64,000 nt of DNA, taken from NCBI RefSeq assembly GCF_000010305.1, contig NC_012489.1, forward strand, positions 2,177,646-2,241,645. Reading direction: 5' to 3'. The first letter of the stretch is position 1, and each line of letters opens with the position of its first letter. Origin of the DNA: Gemmatimonas aurantiaca T-27. Lineage in GTDB: Bacteria; Gemmatimonadota; Gemmatimonadetes; Gemmatimonadales; Gemmatimonadaceae. This document shows, one piece after another, positions 1 through 24,927 of the stretch. A model generated the notes under the pieces. That model was not told the DNA's origin, did not search any database, and was given only the letters and a program-made list of their open reading frames with translations. A program made the position numbers and the translations under genes.

Positions 1-288
1 GCTGAGTTTACGAAGAAGTGGTGCAATGCACCCATTCTTGGCTGACGTCTTGCCTTTGAGTCGGCAGTGATCTGCACTGCCGGACAACCGCCATCGCTCG
101 CCATAGTCCTGCGCAGAGCATGGGTTGTCTTCACATGAAAGGCGAATTCCCCCCTACCAAGGTCACGAAGACACAGGGCCCGTATGCTCAATAGCCACAG
201 GGAGTTGGCCCTTTGGCCTACATGCATTTTGAACGAATAATCCTTTGGGCCTACAATCGCTGCACAGGGACGAAAGGTCAGAAACGTC
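1..288. other. Intergenic stretch without a recognisable gene
   Basis: I see no convincing coding frame here. Small inverted repeats occur, for example CGGCAGTG at 62-69 facing CACTGCCG at 75-82, but none carries a U-tract. A near-duplicate TTTGGCCTAC / TTTGGGCCTAC is present around 212-252. The function is unknown; it may be the far downstream flank of the tRNA-Gly transcript. Confidence 0.4.
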
Positions 289-14669: not shown

Positions 14670-17097
14670 GTGGACGGATACCGAGTTCCTTGTCGAGGAC
14701 TTCCAGCAGGCGGGCCCGGCGGCCCTCCAGTTCCTTGTCACGGAGCGTGCGTTCGGGATGACGCCACGTCAACCGCCACCCGAGGCTGCGTGTGCCGTCG
14801 GGCACACCCGGCCCGCGGAACTCGTCGAACAACGTCACCTGCTCGAGCAGTTCGCCTGCCGTCCGACGCAACACCTCTTGCACCGTGGCCGCTGTCACGG
14901 CATCGGGCACCAACAACGCCATATCAAACTCGGCCGCCGGTGTCGTGGGCAGCGGGGCGAAGCGCACGGCACGCGTGGCGCCGGACTCCCGTTCTGCCGG
15001 CGTATGGGCGTGCTGGTTGGCGCCGGCGACGTCGTCGGAGGAGACCACACCGAGTGTCACCTCCACGCCCCACGCCTCCGTGGCCCATAGCGGCCGGTCG
15101 AGCGGTACAGCGCTCACCTGCCCCACGGTGCCCACGTCGTCCACCACGATCGCCCACTCCAGTGCACCATCGGCCGGCTGCAGCGAGACCGCGCGCCCCG
15201 GAAAGGCTGCAGTCGCCACCCGTGCGCCCAGCTCCTTGGCATCCCAGGCATCGAACGCCGGCGGCTCGGGTTCACTGAAATGCGCCGGGCGACGTGCGCC
15301 CATCAACAACGCGCCGACGCGCGTTTCTTCGATCGGCAGTCGTCCATCACGTGGCGTGAAGACATTGCCGATCTCGAACAGCCGCAGATTGCCCTGCATG
15401 CGCGAGAGGTTGTATTCCGCGCGGCGGGCCAACGTGTCCAGCACCGAAGCACGCAGGAACGGCTCATCGTCGGCCAACGGATTGCGCACCCGTGGCGTGT
15501 GCTCGTCACCAGTGGACGTGAAGGGCATCGGGCGGGCCTCGGCCATGCCAATTCCCACCAACACATCACGCACACGTCGCGAGGCCAGATGCAACGGATG
15601 ATCCGGTGCATTGCCCGGACGGAACGGGCGCAATTCATCGGGCAGTGCGTCAAAGCCCACCAGACGCGCCACCTCTTCGATGAGGTCCACTTCCAGCCCG
15701 AGGTCATGACGCCATCCCGGTGCCTGCACCAGCAGCGCGTCGCCCAAGGGCTGCACTACACACCCCAGCGACTCGAGACGACGCACGATCTCGGCGGTGG
15801 ACACGTCAACACCCAACAGGCGCGCCAGGCGTGACGGACGCAGCGTCACCGCGCCACGCGCCGCAGGTGCCTCACCCACCACCAGCACTTCCGCGACCGT
15901 GCCACCAGCCACCTGCGTGATCAATGCGGCGGCACGGCGCGCCACGATTTCCGCGTCCTGCGCATCGACACCACGTTCGAAGCGATAGCTCGCATCGGTG
16001 GACAGGGCCACTGCACGACGCACCCGACGCACGAAGCGGGCATCGAACACAGCAAGCTCCAGCAGCACATCGGTCGTGCGCTCGGTGACTTCGGTGTCGA
16101 GACCACCCATCACACCGGCAAAACCGATCGGCCGTTCGCCGTCGCAGATCACCGTGGTACCGGCCGCCACGACGCGACTCACCCCATCGAGGGTGGTGAG
16201 CGACGTTTCATCGGCCCGCGTGGGACGCACGGTGATGGTGCGATCCTTGAGTGTGCCCAGATCGTAGGCATGCACCGGATGCCCAAGGCCATGCAGCACA
16301 TAGTTGGTGGCATCCACGACATTGCTGATGCTGCGCAGCCCGATGCTCTCGAGTCGCTGCCGCAGCCATGCCGGGCTGGCCCCCACCTGCACGCCCTGAA
16401 TCACCACGCCCACAAAACGCGGGCAGCTTTCGGCATCATCCACGATCACGCTGGCGAGCTGGCCACGCGCCGCGGTCTTGCCTTCCACCGCCGCGAGAGT
16501 GCTGACGGCCGTCGTGAGCTCCGCCGGAACAGTCGATAGCGGCGTGCCACTGATGGCCGACACTTCGCGCGCCACACCCACGTGCGACAGCAGGTCGGGG
16601 CGATTCGGCAACACATCGAGATCGAGGCGCGCATCACCGAGCTTGATGATCTCGAGCAGCGCGGTGCCAGGGGCGGCGTCGGTGTCGAGGGTCAGGATGC
16701 CATCGTGTTCCTCACCCAGCCCGAGTTCGCGCGCCGAGCACAACATGCCGTTGGAGGTCTCTCCACGAATCTTGCGCTTCTCGATCTTGAGACCACCGGG
16801 CATCACCGTGCCGGTGCGGGCAAACGGATACTTGTGTCCCGCCACGACGTTGGGCGCTCCGCAGACGACTTCCAGCAGTTCACCACTGCCGTCGTCCACC
16901 TTGGTGACCCACAGGCGCTCGGAGTTGGGATGACGTCCTGCTTCCACGACCTGCGCCACCACGAAGGCCGACAATTCCGCGCCGAGCGTGGTGATGCCAT
17001 CGAGCGTGACGCAGTGCCGACTCAACGCTTCGCCAACCTGCTCTGCGCTCAGCGTGTGCGGAACGAACTGCTTGATCCACTCATGCGAAACAATCAT
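14659..17097 (-). CDS. pheT: Phenylalanyl-tRNA synthetase beta subunit
   Basis: PheT pairs with PheS in the alpha2-beta2 enzyme that charges tRNA-Phe and edits mis-activated Tyr. Starting at MIVSHEWIKQF (ATG 17097, overlapping the pheS stop by ATGA), it is 812 residues, the normal size. Domains in order are the tRNA-binding EMAP-like fold with VVCGAPNV and GMLCSARELGL, the B3/B4 editing domain (about 210-400), B5 near 400-470, the catalytic-like core, and a C-terminal FDX-ACB anticodon-binding fold from about 715 (LTWRHPERTLRDKE). The longer frame upstream is an artefact inside pheS. Confidence 0.97.
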   Translation of the reverse strand: MIVSHEWIKQFVPHTLSAEQVGEALSRHCVTLDGITTLGAELSAFVVAQVVEAGRHPNSERLWVTKVDDGSGELLEVVCGAPNVVAGHKYPFARTGTVMPGGLKIEKRKIRGETSNGMLCSARELGLGEEHDGILTLDTDAAPGTALLEIIKLGDARLDLDVLPNRPDLLSHVGVAREVSAISGTPLSTVPAELTTAVSTLAAVEGKTAARGQLASVIVDDAESCPRFVGVVIQGVQVGASPAWLRQRLESIGLRSISNVVDATNYVLHGLGHPVHAYDLGTLKDRTITVRPTRADETSLTTLDGVSRVVAAGTTVICDGERPIGFAGVMGGLDTEVTERTTDVLLELAVFDARFVRRVRRAVALSTDASYRFERGVDAQDAEIVARRAAALITQVAGGTVAEVLVVGEAPAARGAVTLRPSRLARLLGVDVSTAEIVRRLESLGCVVQPLGDALLVQAPGWRHDLGLEVDLIEEVARLVGFDALPDELRPFRPGNAPDHPLHLASRRVRDVLVGIGMAEARPMPFTSTGDEHTPRVRNPLADDEPFLRASVLDTLARRAEYNLSRMQGNLRLFEIGNVFTPRDGRLPIEETRVGALLMGARRPAHFSEPEPPAFDAWDAKELGARVATAAFPGRAVSLQPADGALEWAIVVDDVGTVGQVSAVPLDRPLWATEAWGVEVTLGVVSSDDVAGANQHAHTPAERESGATRAVRFAPLPTTPAAEFDMALLVPDAVTAATVQEVLRRTAGELLEQVTLFDEFRGPGVPDGTRSLGWRLTWRHPERTLRDKELEGRRARLLEVLDKELGIRPRAS

Positions 17098-18140
17098 CGC
17101 GCGAACTGCTCCAGGAAGCGGACGTCGGAATCGTAGAGAACACGAATGTCGTTGATACCGTAGCGCGACATGGCGATGCGCGCCGGGCCCATGCCGAAGG
17201 CCCACCCGGTGTACTTCTCGCTATCGAGTCCGGCGGCTTCGATCACGTTGGGATGCACCATGCCGCAGCCGAGGATCTCGACCCAGCGGAGGCCCTTGCC
17301 GTCGCCCAGGTCCACCTCGACATCCATCTGCGCGCCGGGTTCAACGAAGGGAAAGTACGATGGCCCGAAGCGCACGCGGCGTGTGGCGCCGTAGAAGCGA
17401 CGCGCAAATTCGGCGAGCGTTGCCTTGAGGTCGACAAAGCTCACGCCTTCATCCACCGCCAAACCTTCGAGCTGCATGAAGGCTGGTGCGTGCGTCGCAT
17501 CGAAAAAGTCGCGGCGATACACCTGTCCGGGTGCCAGCACACGGACGGGCGGCGCATAGCGCTGCAGGGTGCGCACCTGCACCGGGGAGGTGTGTGTGCG
17601 CAGCAAAGTGTCTTCGCCCAGGTAGAGCGTGTCGTGCAGCTCCATCGCCGGATGATCGGGCGGGAAGTTCAGTGCGCCGAAGTTGTACCACTCCGTTTCG
17701 GCTTCCGGTCCGAGCGCGATCGTGAAACCGAGCTCGCGGAAGATCTCGCTGATCTCGTCGATGACCAGCGTGACCGGGTGCAGCGAGCCGCGCCAAATGC
17801 CACGTGCGGGCATGGTGGCATCCACCTGCACCACACCGGACGCGGCGGACTGGCGCTGCCCGAACGCGTCGAGCGCAGCCTGGATGGATTGCTTCAGGGT
17901 GTTGAAGGCCCCACCCGCTGCGCGACGATCTTCGGCCGGCAGCATGCGCAGGGCGCTCTGCAGCGCGTTCAGGCGATCGTCCTTGAGCGCGTTGAGCTGT
18001 CCCTTGGCTACGTCGAGACGGGTAGCCACGTCGAGCCCGGCGAGGAGCGCATGGCATTCCGCTGCCAGTGCGTCAGCCTGTGCGAGATACTCGGAGAGGT
18101 TCACAGGAAATTCGGAGACGGGAGCACGAAGGGTCGGCAT
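17094..18140 (-). CDS. pheS: Phenylalanyl-tRNA synthetase alpha subunit
   Basis: PheS carries the class II active site. Seen are the N-terminal coiled-coil arm, HPAMELHDTLYL, the HTSPVQVRT loop (motif 2 region), VYRRDFFDATHAPAFMQLEG and the motif 3 segment GWAFGMGPARIAMSRYGI. The start is uncertain. ATG 18140 (348 residues) lies inside a strong hairpin at 18131-18156, while homology to other PheS arms begins only around NLSEYLAQADALA, which favours GTG 18104 (336 residues). Neither has a strong ribosome binding site. It follows rplT and overlaps pheT by 4 nt. Confidence 0.95.
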   Translation of the reverse strand: MPTLRAPVSEFPVNLSEYLAQADALAAECHALLAGLDVATRLDVAKGQLNALKDDRLNALQSALRMLPAEDRRAAGGAFNTLKQSIQAALDAFGQRQSAASGVVQVDATMPARGIWRGSLHPVTLVIDEISEIFRELGFTIALGPEAETEWYNFGALNFPPDHPAMELHDTLYLGEDTLLRTHTSPVQVRTLQRYAPPVRVLAPGQVYRRDFFDATHAPAFMQLEGLAVDEGVSFVDLKATLAEFARRFYGATRRVRFGPSYFPFVEPGAQMDVEVDLGDGKGLRWVEILGCGMVHPNVIEAAGLDSEKYTGWAFGMGPARIAMSRYGINDIRVLYDSDVRFLEQFAR

Positions 18141-18156
18141 CCGCAGACGCCGACCC
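18131..18156 (-). promoter_or_regulatory. Strong hairpin at the rplT-pheS boundary
   Basis: GGGTCGGC (18131-18138) and GCCGACCC (18149-18156) form an 8-bp GC-rich stem with a 10-nt loop, about 85 nt after rplT ends. The ATG at 18140-18138 sits at the edge of the stem. There is no U-tract on the minus strand, so it may be a weak terminator, a processing site or a translational block rather than a classical terminator. Confidence 0.5.
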
Positions 18157-18241
18157 TCGCAACTTAACCACTCACCCACGGCGCCGCGTCTCGCAGCGCG
18201 TTACGCCAACACCGTGGTTATGCGTGTGTGTGACTCGTGAC

Positions 18242-18616
18242 TCAGGCTGCAGCGACCTTGGCGTCGAGTGCCTTCTTCGCCTGTTCGGCGATGGCCGCGA
18301 ACGCTTCGGGCTCACGCACCGCCAGATCGGCGAGGACCTTGCGGTCGACTTCGATGCCGGAGGCATGCAGGCCGTTGATGAACGCGTTGTACGACATGTC
18401 GTGCAGGCGGGCCGCGGCGTTGATACGCACGATCCAGAGGCGACGGAAGTCGCGCTTCTTGTTCTTGCGATCGCGGTAGGCATAACGCCAGCCACGCTCG
18501 ACGGTTTCCTTGGCAGCCTTCCAGAGCTTCGAGCGGCCACCAAAGGCGCCCTTGGCATGCTTGAGAATCTGCTTCTTACGCTTCAGACGAACGACGTTGG
18601 ATTTGACGCGAGGCAT
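18242..18616 (-). CDS. rplT: 50S ribosomal protein L20
   Basis: L20 binds 23S rRNA early in large-subunit assembly. In several bacteria it also represses its own operon by binding the infC-rpmI-rplT mRNA. The 124-residue product has the family features: the basic N-terminus [19 protein letters not shown], the [16 protein letters not shown] helix and the globular C-terminus with [20 protein letters not shown] short Lys/Ala-rich tail extends it slightly beyond the usual ~118. It lies 12 nt downstream of rpmI. Confidence 0.98.
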
Positions 18617-18628
18617 AGTGGATTATCC

Positions 18629-18826
18629 TCAGGCCACGAGAAGACGCTTGATACGCTTCGCTTCGCCGTTGGTCTCCACGATCGTGGGACGGCGCAGGTC
18701 GCGCTTCTTCTTGCCCGACATCTTGGTCAGGATGTGGCTCTTGTACGCCTTCAGGCGCCGCACCTTCCCCGAACCCGTCACGGAGAAGCGCTTCTTGGCG
18801 CCGCTGTGGGTCTTCATCTTCGGCAT
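18629..18826 (-). CDS. rpmI: 50S ribosomal protein L35
   Basis: This 65-residue basic protein begins [20 protein letters not shown] and has the conserved [19 protein letters not shown] segment of L35. The length is typical. It lies between infC (87-nt gap containing a palindrome at 18894-18911) and rplT (12-nt gap), the classic infC-rpmI-rplT order. Confidence 0.98.
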
Positions 18827-18893
18827 GATTCGCTCATGGCTCTGGTCAACCGCCCCGACGTGAGGCAGCCCTGCATCGGATCACGCGCCACCT

Positions 18894-18911
18894 CCTGAGT
18901 ACCTACTCAGG
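18894..18911 (-). promoter_or_regulatory. Perfect palindrome two nt after the infC stop
   Basis: CCTGAGTA (18894-18901) and TACTCAGG (18904-18911) are perfect inverted repeats separated by CC, which would form a tight hairpin or an 18-bp protein site. It lies at the head of the 87-nt infC-rpmI gap, where L20 binding controls rpmI-rplT translation in some bacteria. A role in that control is inference. There is no U-tract, so it is not a plain terminator. Confidence 0.45.
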
Positions 18912-18913
18912 AA

Positions 18914-19432
18914 TCACTTCGGCGCGAGGATCATCGTCATCGATTTTCCTTCCATCGTGGGTGCGCTCTCGATCTTTGCCAGATCGGCCAGCTCCTGGGA
19001 CACCCGCTCCACCACGATCTTTCCAAGCTCGGGGTGGGCGATCTGTCGGCCACGGAACATGAGCGTCACCTTCACCTTGTTGCCTTCTTCGAGGAACCGA
19101 CGGGCATGCCGCGTCTTGGTCTCGAAGTCGTGATCGTCGATCCCCGGGCGGTACTTGACCTCCTTGAGATGGATCACGTGCTGCTTCTTCTTCGCGAGTC
19201 GCGCCTGCTTGGCCTGTTCGAACTTGAACTTGCCGTAGTCCATGATGCGAACCACGGGAGGCCGAGCCGCCGCCGCCACTTCCACGAGATCGAGGCCCAA
19301 CTCCACCGCCATGGACAGTGCTGCGTCCACCTCGAGGATGCCTAGCTGACTGCCATCGGCGCCGATCACGCGAACGGGGCTGATCCGGATCTGCCGGTTT
19401 ACCCGTGGCGGTCGCTTCGTCGAATCCTGAAT
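18914..19432 (-). CDS. infC: Translation initiation factor IF-3 (ATT start)
   Basis: IF-3 keeps 30S subunits free and checks the start codon-initiator tRNA match. No ATG/GTG gives the right N-terminus; a frame from ATG 19561 would add ~43 unrelated residues. The ATT at 19432-19430, 8 nt after GGAG, gives 172 residues beginning (M)QDSTKRPPRVNRQIRISPVR, the normal length. IF-3 in other bacteria uses AUU or similar codons so that it represses its own translation. The N-domain carries LGILEVDAALSMA and VRIMDYGKFKFEQ. The C-domain carries HVIHLKEVKYRPGID and VTLMFRGRQIAHPELG. It is the first gene of the operon, behind a leader with a terminator-like hairpin. Confidence 0.95.
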   Translation of the reverse strand: MQDSTKRPPRVNRQIRISPVRVIGADGSQLGILEVDAALSMAVELGLDLVEVAAAARPPVVRIMDYGKFKFEQAKQARLAKKKQHVIHLKEVKYRPGIDDHDFETKTRHARRFLEEGNKVKVTLMFRGRQIAHPELGKIVVERVSQELADLAKIESAPTMEGKSMTMILAPK

Positions 19433-19450
19433 AGTGCGTACTCCGGTAGA

Positions 19451-19489
19451 AGAAACAGAAAACGCGGACCCCATGAGTGGAATCCGCGT
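19451..19489 (-). terminator. Attenuator-like hairpin in the infC leader
   Basis: On the minus strand ACGCGGATTCC (19489-19479) pairs over 11 bp (two G-U) with GGGGTCCGCGT (19472-19462) around loop ACTCAT, followed by TTTTCTGTTTC. This is a complete intrinsic terminator placed between the promoter and the infC start, so full-length transcripts must read through it. Upstream at 19561-19581, alternating arms CACCTC-GAGGTG-CACCTC could form mutually exclusive hairpins. Confidence 0.7.
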
Positions 19490-19696
19490 CGTGACGCACA
19501 CTGCCACCCACCTGCATGGACGCATGGCGAGGGAGCGCGTTTCGATGGACTCCAGCAGCACACCTCGGAGGTGAACACCTCGTGAGGGCCGAAGGGTGGG
19601 AGAGGCGTCGCAGCCACTCCACTTCTCGATTGTCCCGGGCTCTGTGACCCGGATGCCGGACGGACCTGTAAAGAGCCGTATTCCAGCAACAGCAGT

Positions 19697-19724
19697 AACC
19701 TAGGCGATGTCCGCCCGAGGTCAA
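19697..19724 (-). promoter_or_regulatory. Promoter of the infC-rpmI-rplT-pheST operon
   Basis: TTGACC (19724-19719) and TAGGTT (19702-19697) are 16 nt apart. The -35 box contains the TGA stop of the upstream hydrolase gene. Transcription would start near 19690, giving a leader of about 255 nt ahead of the ATT start. The same architecture recurs before rpsU (35947-35975). Confidence 0.65.
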
Positions 19725-20602
19725 CCCCGCTCGGCCAAGTGATACGACTTGCCGTCGTGCGCCAGTCGGCCAAAGCCCACATGGGCATCGTGCTCGAAGA
19801 CCAGCAGCCAATCCTCCCGCAGCGCCTCGCCGAGCAGCGCCCGCTTGGATTCGAGCGTGACCAGCGGTTCCACGTCATACCCCATGATCCAGGGGAGGGC
19901 CAGATGGTGGCTGGTCGGCACCACGTCCCCCAGGAAACAGGCCGTCTCGCCGCCCGACCGCAGAATCACGCTCTGGTGATGCGGCGTGTGACCCGGCGTC
20001 GGCCGCACGGTGATGCCGGAGACGATTTCCCGCTCCCCTTCCACCACCTGGAAGCGGCCATTGGCCACGATGGGTGCCCAGTTGGGAGGGAAGTAGCTGG
20101 CCGCCGTGCGCTCGTTGGTGTGCTCCCCGTACGCCTTCTCGCCCGCCTGCACCAGGTAGGTGGCGTTGGCAAACGTCGGCAGCACTTCGCCGGTGGGCGC
20201 ACGCCAGGTGTTGCCACCGGCATGGTCGAAGTGCAGGTGCGTATTGATCACCAGCTTCACATCGTCGGTCGTGAAGCCCGCCGCCCGGATCCCGTCCTCG
20301 AGGGCCGTCCGACCGTCTGCCCCGCTGTTCTCGATGCCGTAGATATCGTGGAACTTCTGGGTCTCTTTGTTGCCCGACCCGGTATCGAGCAGCACCAGGC
20401 CGTCATCGTGCTCGATGAGCAGGCAACGCATGCCCATCGGGATGCGATTCTTGTCATCGGCTTCGAGGCGACGCGACCACAGCGTCTTGGGCACGACGCC
20501 GAACATGGCGCCCCCGTCGAGTTGCTGGCCACCGGCCTGGATGGCATGAATGCGCCACCGTCCCAGGGTGCGGGTATCGAGCAACGGATGCGGAAAGCTC
20601 AC
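19721..20602 (-). CDS. Metallo-beta-lactamase-fold hydrolase
   Basis: This 293-residue protein starts at GTG 20602, overlapping the exonuclease stop by GTGA; a longer frame runs into that gene and is rejected. The zinc motif THLHFDHAGG is intact, with further ligands in PTPGHTPHHQS and FLGDVVPTSHH. The overall pattern (LIEHDDGLVLLDTGSGNKE, FANATYLVQAGE) resembles quorum-lactonase/N-acyl-homoserine lactonase-like and related MBL hydrolases. The substrate cannot be assigned; no signal peptide is present, so it should act in the cytoplasm. Confidence 0.88.
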   Translation of the reverse strand: MSFPHPLLDTRTLGRWRIHAIQAGGQQLDGGAMFGVVPKTLWSRRLEADDKNRIPMGMRCLLIEHDDGLVLLDTGSGNKETQKFHDIYGIENSGADGRTALEDGIRAAGFTTDDVKLVINTHLHFDHAGGNTWRAPTGEVLPTFANATYLVQAGEKAYGEHTNERTAASYFPPNWAPIVANGRFQVVEGEREIVSGITVRPTPGHTPHHQSVILRSGGETACFLGDVVPTSHHLALPWIMGYDVEPLVTLESKRALLGEALREDWLLVFEHDAHVGFGRLAHDGKSYHLAERG

Positions 20603-21552
20603 GCGATATCGTCCTTGGTCACTGGAAGGGGGAATGCCCGTCGGCGGCGATCGGAGGCCGTACGCGGCCGTGTGCCCACCGGGCCATCCACGAACGCCTG
20701 CAACGCCGTCCACGATTCAACGCCGTGTTCCGACGCGATGTTGAGCATGCGGCAGAGCGCGTGTGCGGTGGCCAGTGCGTCCCCAGCCGCCCGATGTCGC
20801 GCAGCAATCTCGATACCGAAGTAGCGCGTGACGTGATCGAGCGAACGCCGCGAAAGCTGTGGCAACGCCGCCCGCGCAAACCGCACGGTGCACAGACGGG
20901 GCCCCGACAACTCCTGCCCGCTGCCCCGTCGCACTTCTTCGCTCACGAATCGCCAGTCGAATGGCGCGTTGTGTGCCACAAAAATCGAACCGCGCAGTCG
21001 ATCGAGCACGTTGCTCGTGATCTCGCGGAAGGTCGGCTGGTCGCGCACCATGTCCCACGTGATGTGGGTCAGTGACGTGATGTACGGCGGGATCGGCCGC
21101 TCGGGATTCACGAGCTGCGAGTACACCTCACCCACCTGCCCGCCCTGCACCTGCACGATGGCGATTTCGGTGATGCGGTCCCCTCCGGCCGCGCGCGTGC
21201 CGGTGGTCTCGACGTCAACCACCGCAAACGGCAGATCGAGCAATCGGGGCGACTGGCCGGCCGATTCGGCGACCCTGGCCGAACCCGCGACGCGCGCAGT
21301 CGACGGCGCAGTCTGGTGTCCTGCCGGGTAGGCAACGGCCTGCAGTGTCCAATGACCGGTCGGCAACCGCAGAAACTCCGGATGACTACCCAGTAGTGCG
21401 GCCGCCATACGTTCGGCCGCATCCGCCTGCAGGCGCTCCACCTGGCAGACATCGCGCATGAGCGTAACGGCGTCGAGCGGCCCTTCGGCGAGGCGACGTG
21501 CGGCCCGGGCGGAGAGTGTCGTGGGCCGAGGCGAGACTGATGTACCGATCAC
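20599..21552 (-). CDS. DnaQ-family 3'-5' exonuclease
   Basis: The 317-residue product starts at GTG. Residues ~1-105 are of unknown type. The DEDDh exonuclease domain follows, with Exo I VVDVETTG, Exo II HNAPFDWRF and Exo III around RHRAAGDALATAH (catalytic H and D). It resembles the stand-alone epsilon-like proteins rather than the polymerase III subunit, whose usual partners are not nearby. It faces rex divergently, so the 83-nt gap holds both promoters and the Rex operator, raising the chance of joint redox control. Its stop overlaps the hydrolase gene by 4 nt. Confidence 0.9.
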   Translation of the reverse strand: MIGTSVSPRPTTLSARAARRLAEGPLDAVTLMRDVCQVERLQADAAERMAAALLGSHPEFLRLPTGHWTLQAVAYPAGHQTAPSTARVAGSARVAESAGQSPRLLDLPFAVVDVETTGTRAAGGDRITEIAIVQVQGGQVGEVYSQLVNPERPIPPYITSLTHITWDMVRDQPTFREITSNVLDRLRGSIFVAHNAPFDWRFVSEEVRRGSGQELSGPRLCTVRFARAALPQLSRRSLDHVTRYFGIEIAARHRAAGDALATAHALCRMLNIASEHGVESWTALQAFVDGPVGTRPRTASDRRRRAFPLPVTKDDIA

Positions 21553-21601
21553 GTCCGGAAGTTAGTGAGCCGCTGGTGAATTGCTGTGCGCGTGCCTAGC
21601 T

Positions 21602-21619
21602 TTGTGAAGATTTTCACAA
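21602..21619 (+). promoter_or_regulatory. Rex operator (perfect 18-bp palindrome)
   Basis: TTGTGAA (21602-21608), spacer GATT, TTCACAA (21613-21619) is an exact match to the established Rex site TTGTGAAN4TTCACAA. It lies 16 nt before the rex GTG and abuts a possible -10 box TAGCTT (21597-21602). Bound Rex would block its own transcription, with release at high NADH. The divergent exonuclease gene could be affected too. Confidence 0.92.
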
Positions 21620-21635
21620 GCACCAGAGCGCCGCC

Positions 21636-22280
21636 GTGAAACGTATCGCCGACTCCACTGTCCGACGCCTGTCGATGTACCTCCGCTATCTGGAGGACCT
21701 CGACACCCGCGGCCAGCAAACTGCCTCCAGTGATGAACTGGCCCATCTGTGCGGCACCACGCCGGCACAGGTCCGAAAGGATCTTTCCTTCTTCGGATCC
21801 TTTGGCAAACGCGGACTCGGCTACCCCGTCCATGAGCTGACGGCCCACTTGCGCGAGATTCTCGGACTGCAGCGCGAGTGGAAGGTCATTATTGTCGGGG
21901 CCGGCAAGATCGGTGCGGCGCTGGCAAACTATCGCGGGTTCCGCCAGCGTGGGTTCACCGTCGTGGGCGTGTACGACCACGATCCTGCCAAAGTTGGCAA
22001 GGCATGGGGCGACGCCACCATCCGGTCGATGGATACGCTGGCCCAGGATATCCAGCGTGAGGAAGCGCCCATCGCGGTGCTCGCCATCCCGGCCGAAAAC
22101 GCCCAGGCCGTCGTGGATCAGATCGTCGCCGCCGGCATCCGCGCGATCCTGAACTTCGCGCCGACCCAGATCTCCGTGCCTCCGCACGTCTCGCTCAAGT
22201 CGGTGAACATGGCCATGGAACTGGAAGGCCTGTCATTCGCCCTGACCAACGCCGGCCTGCTCGATCAGGGCGCGGCCTGA
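21636..22280 (+). CDS. rex: Redox-sensing transcriptional repressor Rex
   Basis: Rex reads the NADH/NAD+ ratio and represses genes for respiration and fermentation when NADH is low. The 214-residue protein (GTG start) has an N-terminal winged helix (LSMYLRYLEDLD, SSDELAHLCGTTPAQVRKDLSFFGSFGKRGLGY) and a C-terminal Rossmann fold with VGAGKIGAALANY and the later VPPHVSLKSVNMAMELEGLSF. All family hallmarks are intact. It is one of only three plus-strand protein genes. Its 3' end overlaps rsmA tail-to-tail by 16 bp. Confidence 0.98.
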   Translation: MKRIADSTVRRLSMYLRYLEDLDTRGQQTASSDELAHLCGTTPAQVRKDLSFFGSFGKRGLGYPVHELTAHLREILGLQREWKVIIVGAGKIGAALANYRGFRQRGFTVVGVYDHDPAKVGKAWGDATIRSMDTLAQDIQREEAPIAVLAIPAENAQAVVDQIVAAGIRAILNFAPTQISVPPHVSLKSVNMAMELEGLSFALTNAGLLDQGAA

Positions 22281-23227
22281 TCGGGATCCACGACGTCGGT
22301 CGCCGTCGGTTCTGACAGCCCCTCCGCCCGCAACGCCCGCACGAGTTTCGCGAACTCGGCGGGCGTCAGTGTTTCCGGACGTGCCTCCGGCGACAACCCA
22401 CACGCCGCGATCACTGCCCCGGCGCGCTCGGCGTCAAACGAAGCGATGGTCCGCACCACCCGGATCAACTGTTTGCGCCGAAGACCAAAGGCGGCCAGCA
22501 CGAAGCTGCGGAAACGGGCTTCGAGCTCCGGCTCCACGACGGCATCGGGCCGCGGCACGACCCGCACCACGGCGGAATCGACGGCGGGCGCCGGGTTGAA
22601 CGCGCTGGGCGGCACTTTGCGAATCAGTTCCACGCCCACCACGGCCTGGAGATTCACACTCAGCGCGCCATAGATCTTGTCGCCCGGCGGCGCGGCCATG
22701 CGATCGGCCACTTCTTTCTGCACGAGATACACCGCCACATCGGGACGTGGCTGGACGAGCGCGTGAAAGATGATCGGCGTGGTGATGTAATACGGCACAT
22801 TGCCCGCCAGCACATACGGCTCCCCAGCGAGTGCGGCGAGATTGGTTTGCAGCACGTCGGCTTCCACGATCTCGACATGGGGCCGGTCGGCATACCGTGC
22901 GCGCAAATGTGCGGCGAGATCGCGGTCGATCTCGATCGCGATCACGCGCCTGGCGCGCTCCACCAACAGATCGGTGAGTGCGCCGCGGCCCGGGCCGATC
23001 TCGATGACGGTGCGATCGCGTACATCACCCAGGGCGTCCGCGATGCTGCTGAGAACCCGGGTGTCCTTGAGGAAATGTTGACCGAAACGCTTGCGTGGTG
23101 CTGGCAAACGATCGCCGCGTGGTGGGCCGCCACGTCGAAAGCGGGATGCGCCTCCATTCCCATCTGGACGCGACACGCCTTCCCCTCCACGTGATGAGCC
23201 TCCACCCTGCCCGCGACCTGGTTTCAT
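22265..23227 (-). CDS. rsmA: 16S rRNA A1518/A1519 dimethyltransferase RsmA (KsgA)
   Basis: RsmA dimethylates two adenines in helix 45 late in 30S assembly. The Rossmann methyltransferase core is intact: KRFGQHFLKD, IEIGPGRGALTDLL, the ANVPYYITTPI-type motif IV written here as AGNVPYYITTPI, and the C-terminal small domain. Unusually, about 45 residues precede the core and are rich in Gly, Arg, Pro and Ser (GRGQGGG, RFRRGGPPRGDR). The ATG overlaps the rsbU stop by ATGA, which supports this start and makes the extension probably real. Length is 320 versus the usual ~270. Confidence 0.96.
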   Translation of the reverse strand: MKPGRGQGGGSSRGGEGVSRPDGNGGASRFRRGGPPRGDRLPAPRKRFGQHFLKDTRVLSSIADALGDVRDRTVIEIGPGRGALTDLLVERARRVIAIEIDRDLAAHLRARYADRPHVEIVEADVLQTNLAALAGEPYVLAGNVPYYITTPIIFHALVQPRPDVAVYLVQKEVADRMAAPPGDKIYGALSVNLQAVVGVELIRKVPPSAFNPAPAVDSAVVRVVPRPDAVVEPELEARFRSFVLAAFGLRRKQLIRVVRTIASFDAERAGAVIAACGLSPEARPETLTPAEFAKLVRALRAEGLSEPTATDVVDPDQAAP

Positions 23228-24927
23228 ATCGATGACTCTCCGGGATTCACCGCGGACGGGACCATACGGTCGACGACGACCACCGTGCAGTCATCGCGAA
23301 GTGGTGCACGTCCGGTGTGGGCGTTGAGTCGCCCGTAGATGGCATCCAGAATGGTGTCCGGCGTATCCGTGGGGGAGGTGTGCGTGAGCCATTGCAGGAC
23401 TTCCGCTTCCCCGATGCGGCGGCCGGCGGGATCACGGGCGTCAATCACGCCGTCGGTCAGGAAGACGAGACGGTCATCGGCGCGCCAGCTCATGACACAC
23501 TCTTCGATCGGCGCGTCACTGAAGCCAATGGGCGGCGCCACGGCCCCAAGCCGTGTGGCGTGTCCATCGCTCGACAGCTTGAAGGCATGCGGATGTCCGG
23601 CGTTGGCAAACCGTAGCTCGTTGGCGCGGCTGTCGATCACGGCGTAACACATGCTGATCGACATTTCGGTGGACATGAGTTCTTCGCGCAGCGAGCGCTG
23701 CACCGCTTCGATGGCGATGGACGGATCGAACGCGGCCTGCACATGAATGGCGGCCGCGCTGAGGGCCAAGGCCATGACCAGCGCCGATTGATACCCGTGC
23801 CCGGACACATCGCCGATCAGCACACCGGTGCGATCCTGGTCCAGTCGGGCCAACAGATAGAAATCCCCACCTACACTTTCGGCCGGAACGACGCGCGCGG
23901 CTGCGCGTGCTTCCGGCTGCACCACCTGTGGGCTCGGCAACAACTTGAGCTGAAGTTCGTGAGCCAGTCGCATTTCGCGGGCCAACTGCTGACGCTCCAC
24001 GGCAGCCCGCACCAACGAGGCGTTGTGCATGGCCACGCCGACCTGCGTCCCAATCGCCACGGCCAACTTGCGATCACCGCCGGAGAACGGCGCACCGCCC
24101 GGTCGTCCGGCCAGCACCAACACACCCAGCGGAACGGCAATGCCTTCTGCGCCGCGCCGCGTCGGGACCGGGAAGGTGCCCGTGATGCCCACGCCGGAAC
24201 TGGGGCGCGTGATGGCAACGGCCATCAGCGGTGCGGCGCGGGCGGCCAGGATCGGGTCGGCCAGCGATGCCGCGTTCCCGTCCTCGGTGCAGGCGCTGCC
24301 CGCATGATAGGCACGCACGGCAATATGGGTCGCCTGCTCGAGCGACACGGGCTCGTAGGCATCGTCGGCGAGCCCCAGCGAAGCAATGGGCGCCAATGTC
24401 CCCTGTGCCCGGTTGGTCTGCAGAAACACGGCCCGCGTGGCGCCCAGTGTCGCCGCCAGCTCGGCCAGCAGCGTATCGGCCACGCTTTCCACCGAGGTCG
24501 TGCCTCCCAGCAGCTCCCCGATGGCATACAGGAGATTGATCTCCTCGTAACGCTCGGCGAGTTCGCGGGTGGCTCCATCGCGCTCACGCGTGATGCGACG
24601 GACCAGTGGCAGCAGGCGCCCCAGCAGTCGATCGACGTCGGCCGCAGGGCCTCCCACGGCGACAGGTTCCTGCACGGCCTCGCCGGCTTCGACGAACAGC
24701 CAGCCCACACTGTCGCCGGTGTTCACGAGCTGCGCGTGCAAGTGATGCGAACGGGCCCAGGATGCCACATCCCAAGCCTGCGCGCAGGAGGTAGTGCGTT
24801 CGGCAAAGACACTCGATGACGCGCCCAGCAACGTGGGCACGACCGAGCCTTCACGCCGTTCCCAGATGGCCGCCTGGCGCCCAGTGGCCTCGAGAAACGC
24901 GGCCAGAAGGGCGGCGACCTCGTTCAT
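23224..24927 (-). CDS. rsbU: GAF + PP2C/SpoIIE serine phosphatase (RsbU-like)
   Basis: RsbU-type phosphatases dephosphorylate an anti-anti-sigma protein to release a stress sigma factor. The start at ATG 24927 overlaps the rsbW-like stop by ATGA and gives 567 residues. Residues ~1-120 are an unknown sensor-like part. A GAF-like domain spans about 150-310 (YEEINLLYAIGELLGGTTSVE). A linker helix ends in ELQLKLLPS. The PP2C domain has all metal-binding motifs: VGGDFY, IGDVSGHG, ANAGHPHAF, LTDGVIDA and the terminal DDCTVVV. It completes an rsbV-rsbW-rsbU trio. The gene symbol reflects role, not proven orthology. Confidence 0.92.
   Translation of the reverse strand: MNEVAALLAAFLEATGRQAAIWERREGSVVPTLLGASSSVFAERTTSCAQAWDVASWARSHHLHAQLVNTGDSVGWLFVEAGEAVQEPVAVGGPAADVDRLLGRLLPLVRRITRERDGATRELAERYEEINLLYAIGELLGGTTSVESVADTLLAELAATLGATRAVFLQTNRAQGTLAPIASLGLADDAYEPVSLEQATHIAVRAYHAGSACTEDGNAASLADPILAARAAPLMAVAITRPSSGVGITGTFPVPTRRGAEGIAVPLGVLVLAGRPGGAPFSGGDRKLAVAIGTQVGVAMHNASLVRAAVERQQLAREMRLAHELQLKLLPSPQVVQPEARAAARVVPAESVGGDFYLLARLDQDRTGVLIGDVSGHGYQSALVMALALSAAAIHVQAAFDPSIAIEAVQRSLREELMSTEMSISMCYAVIDSRANELRFANAGHPHAFKLSSDGHATRLGAVAPPIGFSDAPIEECVMSWRADDRLVFLTDGVIDARDPAGRRIGEAEVLQWLTHTSPTDTPDTILDAIYGRLNAHTGRAPLRDDCTVVVVDRMVPSAVNPGESSI

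Follow-up and report, generated by a model that had tools for sequence, protein, structure and literature searches.

The window analysed here, a stretch of 64,000 nucleotides from Gemmatimonas aurantiaca T-27, contains an infC gene with a leader some 258 nt long ahead of it, and the question raised by this leader is whether transcription can be halted within it before infC is reached and, if so, by which signal. A preliminary description of the DNA had taken the leader for a transcription attenuator of the infC-rpmI-rplT operon with ribosomal protein L20 as a likely effector. Both proposals are supported by what follows: the first by terminators before infC in most related genomes and by a conserved leader RNA, and the second by a core that this RNA shares with the L20 leader already known.

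Promoter, operon and terminator

The operon lies on the minus strand, along which coordinates fall in the direction of transcription. It begins with infC, encoding IF3 (18914-19432; Pfam IF3_N and IF3_C), and continues with rpmI for L35 (18629-18826; PF01632), rplT for L20, the proposed effector (18242-18616; PF00453), and pheS, the next gene in the apparent operon (17094-18179; PF01409). The ATT codon at 19432-19430, previously suggested as the infC start, opens the conserved IF3 reading frame and is preceded by the ribosome-binding site CCGGAG (19441-19446). The promoter that had been placed at 19724-19697 is present as the promoter-like sequence TTGACC-16-TAGGTT, with its -35 element at 19724-19719 and its -10 element at 19702-19697. 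The pattern TTGAC-15..19-TAnnnT is kept upstream of the sensor motif described below in 68 of 87 leaders, where mononucleotide shuffles predict 0.2. A gene for a metallo-beta-lactamase-fold hydrolase (19721-20713; identified by Pfam) precedes infC on the same strand, and this neighbourhood is a lasting one, being found in 75 of 90 loci.

The infC leader set was drawn from 100 relatives, of which 92 genomes gave an infC match and 90 were used; G002 and G089 were excluded for broken matches. The rplT gene lies inside the infC operon at all 86 loci with enough sequence.

Between the promoter and infC is a predicted intrinsic terminator, consisting of a stem-loop of 13 pairs, G-U included (19461-19490), and the T-run TTTTCTGTTTC (19452-19462). 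A plain consensus scan of the surrounding 10 kb returned no overall excess of terminator-like sites (5, against 4.8 in shuffles), and the stem-loop at 19490-19461 was by far the strongest of them; its score was equalled by none of 1000 dinucleotide shuffles of its own leader. The hairpin and T-run reported earlier are real features of the sequence. A terminator score of at least 30 was found before infC in 85 of the 90 leaders and in 23 of 900 shuffles. Folding the leader as a unit gave a z of -1.9, which is not decisive.

A conserved RNA upstream of the terminator

Plain alignment of the leaders of the genus revealed long invariant blocks just ahead of the terminator, with the motif consensus AAG-Y-[P2]-CACC(C/U)-[P3]-GG(N)GUYC; in the wider leader set this becomes AAG-Y-[P2]-CACCC-nnnGCC-[P3]-GG(N)GUYC. 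An alignment of 88 leaders (A1) was used to build the model R1. Leaders L029 and L061 are absent from A1, L021 was placed in it by hand, and the motif of L029 was found afterwards by R1. The leaders were selected by pattern anchors (AAG or AAA, CACC or CTCCC, the GG-GU forms, and pairing in P2), and the anchored columns are therefore conserved by construction; a count of GGNGU in 50 of 50 sequences likewise follows from the way the leaders were picked and carries no weight here. The genus alignment, the searches with R1 and with the Bacilli model R2, and the strict-core count given below are free of this conservation by construction, although R1 itself came from A1.

In the window the only strong match to R1 is at 19640-19545 on the minus strand (66.8 bits, E 3e-16), where the whole model is matched by a sequence that was itself among the 88 used to build it. 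Read from its 5′ side, this L20-leader-like RNA comprises an AAG (19622-19624) that is invariant in A1 and is the counterpart of the AA in the Bacillus L20 site; hairpin P2 (19599-19620), equivalent to H1 of the Bacillus leader; a CACCC (19594-19598) whose ACCC (19597-19594) forms the 5′ strand of P1, equivalent to H2; hairpin P3 (19563-19589; GCCCTC ... GAGG); and GGAGTCC (19547-19553), which is the 3′ strand of P1 and, from its pairing with the terminator, a putative alternative antiterminator strand. In family f1, P1 pairs with ACCC only by way of one bulged base, in the form GG(N)GU.

The hairpins of this RNA are conserved and covarying in related leaders. Among 98 model-aligned sequences, all six counted pairs of P2 vary on both sides with 95.7% of cells paired, and in P3 five of six counted pairs do so with 80-88% of cells paired. 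For the whole structure, changes on both sides were seen in 265 cells; shuffles gave 93, and sliding the partners gave no more than 88. Although the alignment had been fitted to the structure under test, both controls are clearly separated from the real count. On a MAFFT alignment, RNAalifold recovered P2 as the only helix.

Of the 90 infC leaders of the order, 88 of which had served to build the model, R1 recognised the motif in 89; in a second order, which contributed nothing to the model, it did so in 29 of 30. In that second order all 31 of 31 genomes have infC; 30 loci were taken, 13 of them from one genus, and 27 matched at E 3e-6 or better, with L253 at 0.0012 and L254 at 0.011. The motif was not found by R1 in the infC leaders L061 of the first order and L276 of the second, and such apparent losses of the sensor could be instructive. 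Across 395 genomes of the phylum, including those used in model building, 220 matched at E ≤0.01, nearly always once. Thirty genomes outside the order, picked because an earlier R1 search had matched them, were searched whole; wherever the best match reached E ≤2.7e-4 it fell upstream of infC (26 of 26 genomes), as it did in one of the four above that value. Two matches were found in eight genomes; some of the second ones fall on further infC contigs or contig ends, and four are weak and away from infC. Weak matches away from infC (24-28 bits) were also noted at L148, L149, L151 and L163-L166 and are probably due to chance.

A putative strand opposed to the terminator

The three alternating CACCTC/GAGGTG arms noted in the preliminary description are indeed present, as GAGGTG-CACCTC-GAGGTG at 19581-19561 on the minus strand, inside the variable part of P3. 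The pattern occurs in one of 24 leaders of the genus, that of the T-27 window, and the conserved helix P3 takes in only its last GAGG. The proposal that these arms form mutually exclusive hairpins is thus unsupported: they are absent from the other 23 leaders and, being confined to one genome, are not the switch.

The comparisons support instead the GG(N)GUYC tail as the putative switching strand, set against the 5′ arm of the terminator. In the window, GGAGUCC (19553-19547) is complementary to GGAUUCC in that arm (19485-19479), with a duplex energy of -13.1 kcal/mol. In 86 leaders (L021, L061 and L080 being left out, here and in the Gemmatimonadota half of the comparison with Bacilli) tails paired with their own terminators at -12.17 kcal/mol compared with -11.05 kcal/mol for permuted partners, a value reached in 0 of 5000 permutations. 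When permutation was restricted to within groups the count was 2 of 5000; in families f2 and f3 alone the co-variation was not significant (569 of 5000). A second, independent set consisted of 30 loci chosen by hand among the hits, one or a few per genus, of which the 24 with a terminator score of at least 30 were permuted. In these 24 leaders of other families the own pairs gave -14.21 and the permuted pairs -13.34 (32 of 5000), or 62 of 5000 when permuted within families, and there was no co-variation between P2 and the terminator (1805 of 5000). Judged on unpermuted duplex energy, the terminator arm pairs best with the tail in just 36 of the 86 leaders, and the claim for a switch rests accordingly on co-variation.

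An antiterminator formed by H1/P2 was not found in Gemmatimonadota, where P2 gave -11.17 with its own terminator and -11.19 with permuted ones. The reverse holds in Bacilli: there P2 pairs with the terminator at -15.79 against -14.32 for permuted partners, and the tail gives -3.89 against -3.81. The terminator arm of the Gemmatimonadota leader, unlike that of the Bacilli leader, therefore co-varies with the 3′ strand of P1 and not with P2. The conserved RNA, its covarying helices, its position upstream of infC, the terminator and this co-variation of tail and arm are all results of computation.

From them we consider it probable, with good confidence, that the leader is an attenuator that senses free L20, excess L20 favouring the terminator and turning off infC-rpmI-rplT-pheS; the binding of L20, the direction of control and termination itself are inferred steps. 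RNA polymerase would start near 19690 and make the sensor RNA (P2, P1 and P3) first. With no L20 to spare, the GG(N)GUYC strand of P1 would pair with the 5′ arm of the terminator instead, a pairing that would block the terminator and allow infC-rpmI-rplT-pheS to be transcribed. L20 exceeding the supply of new rRNA would bind at the P2/P1 junction and keep P1 closed, leaving the terminator arm free to form its hairpin, so that transcription would stop near 19455 and yield an RNA of about 235 nt. The cell can probably in this way stop making the infC-rpmI-rplT products when L20 is in excess.

Relation to known L20 leaders and alternative readings

In Bacillus subtilis, L20 binds the H1/H2 junction of its leader and stabilises the terminator, and mutations in the junction relieve repression (PMC6097659). 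The Rfam family of this leader, RF00558 (L20_leader), reads in Bacilli AAG-N-[AGAAGC..GCUUCU]-CACCU-[GACGC..GCAGU]-AGGU, followed by a terminator. The Gemmatimonadota leaders share with it the placement upstream of infC-rpmI-rplT, the operon, the intrinsic terminator between sensor and infC, and, in the same order, AAG-N, an adjacent hairpin, CACC(U/C), an enclosed second hairpin and (A/G)GGU. The junction to which L20 binds (the AAG before H1, the C between H1 and H2, and the ACC/GGU of H2) is present in sequence, with a bulged base in the GGU strand in family f1, and the parts that match the known L20 site, as judged from sequence, are the AAG, which does not vary, and the CC/GG pairs of P1. 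The AAG is invariant both in A1 and in the Bacilli alignment A3, AAG/AAA having served as a selection anchor in both. Unlike the Bacilli leader, that of Gemmatimonadota is GC-rich, has a P2 of free sequence and a GUYC tail, and in family f1 has the one-base bulge in P1.

The RF00558 model itself gave no match in positions 15000-24000 of the window at E ≤5, its gathering cut-off not being reached, and none in 20 infC loci at E ≤10; the Rfam search of the window region and these 20 loci returned chance matches only, such as SNORD23 and microRNAs. For comparison in both directions, 80 Bacilli loci were fetched with L20 as query, and R2 was built from 59 of them: 11 could not be parsed, and another 10 were discarded because their ends were poor. 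At E ≤5, R1 matched 15 of these 80 (best 0.0071), in every case within the leader upstream of infC, and at 10 of the 15 the same spot also passes the RF00558 cut-off. R2 gave 12 matches on the 90 Gemmatimonadota loci (best E 0.0078), 11 on the motif and one elsewhere; those on the motif, weak at each locus, are 10 of the 90 at E ≤1.1 and one further at 2.7. Cross-recognition is thus weak per locus, with best E values of 0.007-0.008, and in the right place. When eight Bacilli genomes were searched whole with R1, their L20 leaders were not found. Of the 90 Gemmatimonadota leaders, 69 contain a strict L20-leader core, which is missing from all of the 1800 shuffles, 90 reverse complements and 342 downstream windows; this core was written after the leaders had been viewed, and its count therefore measures specificity rather than discovery.

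Other L20-binding RNAs offer a further comparison. The L20 operator of Escherichia coli acts on the translation of rpmI and has a different fold. Located at rpmI-rplT, it shares with the present leader the effector proposed here, the genes, and an AA dimer with G-C pairs, described as a mimic of rRNA (PMC7247131). For Deltaproteobacteria, a candidate L20 leader is likewise described as having an AA dimer and consecutive G-C pairs with a helix between them, on another scaffold (Eckert et al. 2020, PMC7247131).

The leader of Gemmatimonadota is, on this sequence evidence, most likely related to the Bacillus L20 leader, from which it has diverged and differs in its antiterminator. A somewhat unlikely alternative, compatible with the sensing of L20 and differing on origin, is that the RNA arose separately, L20 having selected for a small junction motif more than once. 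Convergence would be in keeping with the differing scaffolds that surround the AA dimer and two G-C pairs common to the L20 leaders of Gammaproteobacteria, Firmicutes and Deltaproteobacteria (PMC7247131) and with the different antiterminators of Gemmatimonadota and Bacilli; against it, the scaffold also agrees, with AAG, a single N, a hairpin, CACC, an enclosed hairpin, GGU and a terminator in order. Published accounts place L20 leaders of this form in Firmicutes only (PMC6097659) or in Firmicutes and Thermotogales (PMC3766115), and infC is unnamed in the main text of a wide survey of attenuators (PMC2965389). Among open papers, L20 or infC leader attenuation in Gemmatimonadota was not found described, which is no proof of absence. 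From searches that covered Gemmatimonadota and Bacilli, it is an evenly balanced possibility that the L20 sensor is more ancient and more widespread than assumed, the same binding core having been plugged into a different antiterminator in Gemmatimonadota. If so, a single protein-sensing RNA has exchanged its switch from one phylum to another while its sensor stayed the same, providing a clean natural pair of RNAs with one sensor and two switches, and L20 feedback on the infC operon in this form would extend further, to a relative that Rfam misses.

An attenuator whose core binds IF3, L35 or another ligand in place of L20 is improbable. The same operon encodes IF3 and L35, and the start codon of infC is rare, a feature through which IF3 is known to act on its own translation. 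Yet what is conserved coincides exactly with the junction of helices where L20 binding maps in B. subtilis, and the start codon works at translation whereas the terminator sits before the ribosome-binding site. Very improbable is the reading of the hairpin as the ordinary terminator of the upstream hydrolase gene, with no regulatory part in infC. The persistence of that gene on the same strand at 75 of 90 loci would suit it, but the promoter lies between the gene and the hairpin (68 of 87 leaders), the RNA between promoter and hairpin is conserved and covarying, and within the genus the terminator ends about 28 bases ahead of the infC start codon, leaving no room for another promoter. Control by a translated leader peptide or by tRNA-Phe through a T-box, suggested by pheS downstream of rplT in 83 of 90 loci, is hardly credible, as the searched window region and 20 loci gave no match to the T-box (RF00230), the leaders differ in length by numbers not divisible by three, and the conserved blocks consist of paired RNA.

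With attenuation by L20 as the preferred reading, the position of pheS directly after rplT implies that phenylalanyl-tRNA synthetase may share the attenuator, and pheS may be added to the genes possibly controlled by L20. In the family, 51 of 52 loci start infC with ATT, ATC or ATA, and this type of start fits translational self-control by IF3, so that the operon may hold a second feedback loop. Read by eye, CTG or ATT seemingly serves as the infC start in other families of the order.
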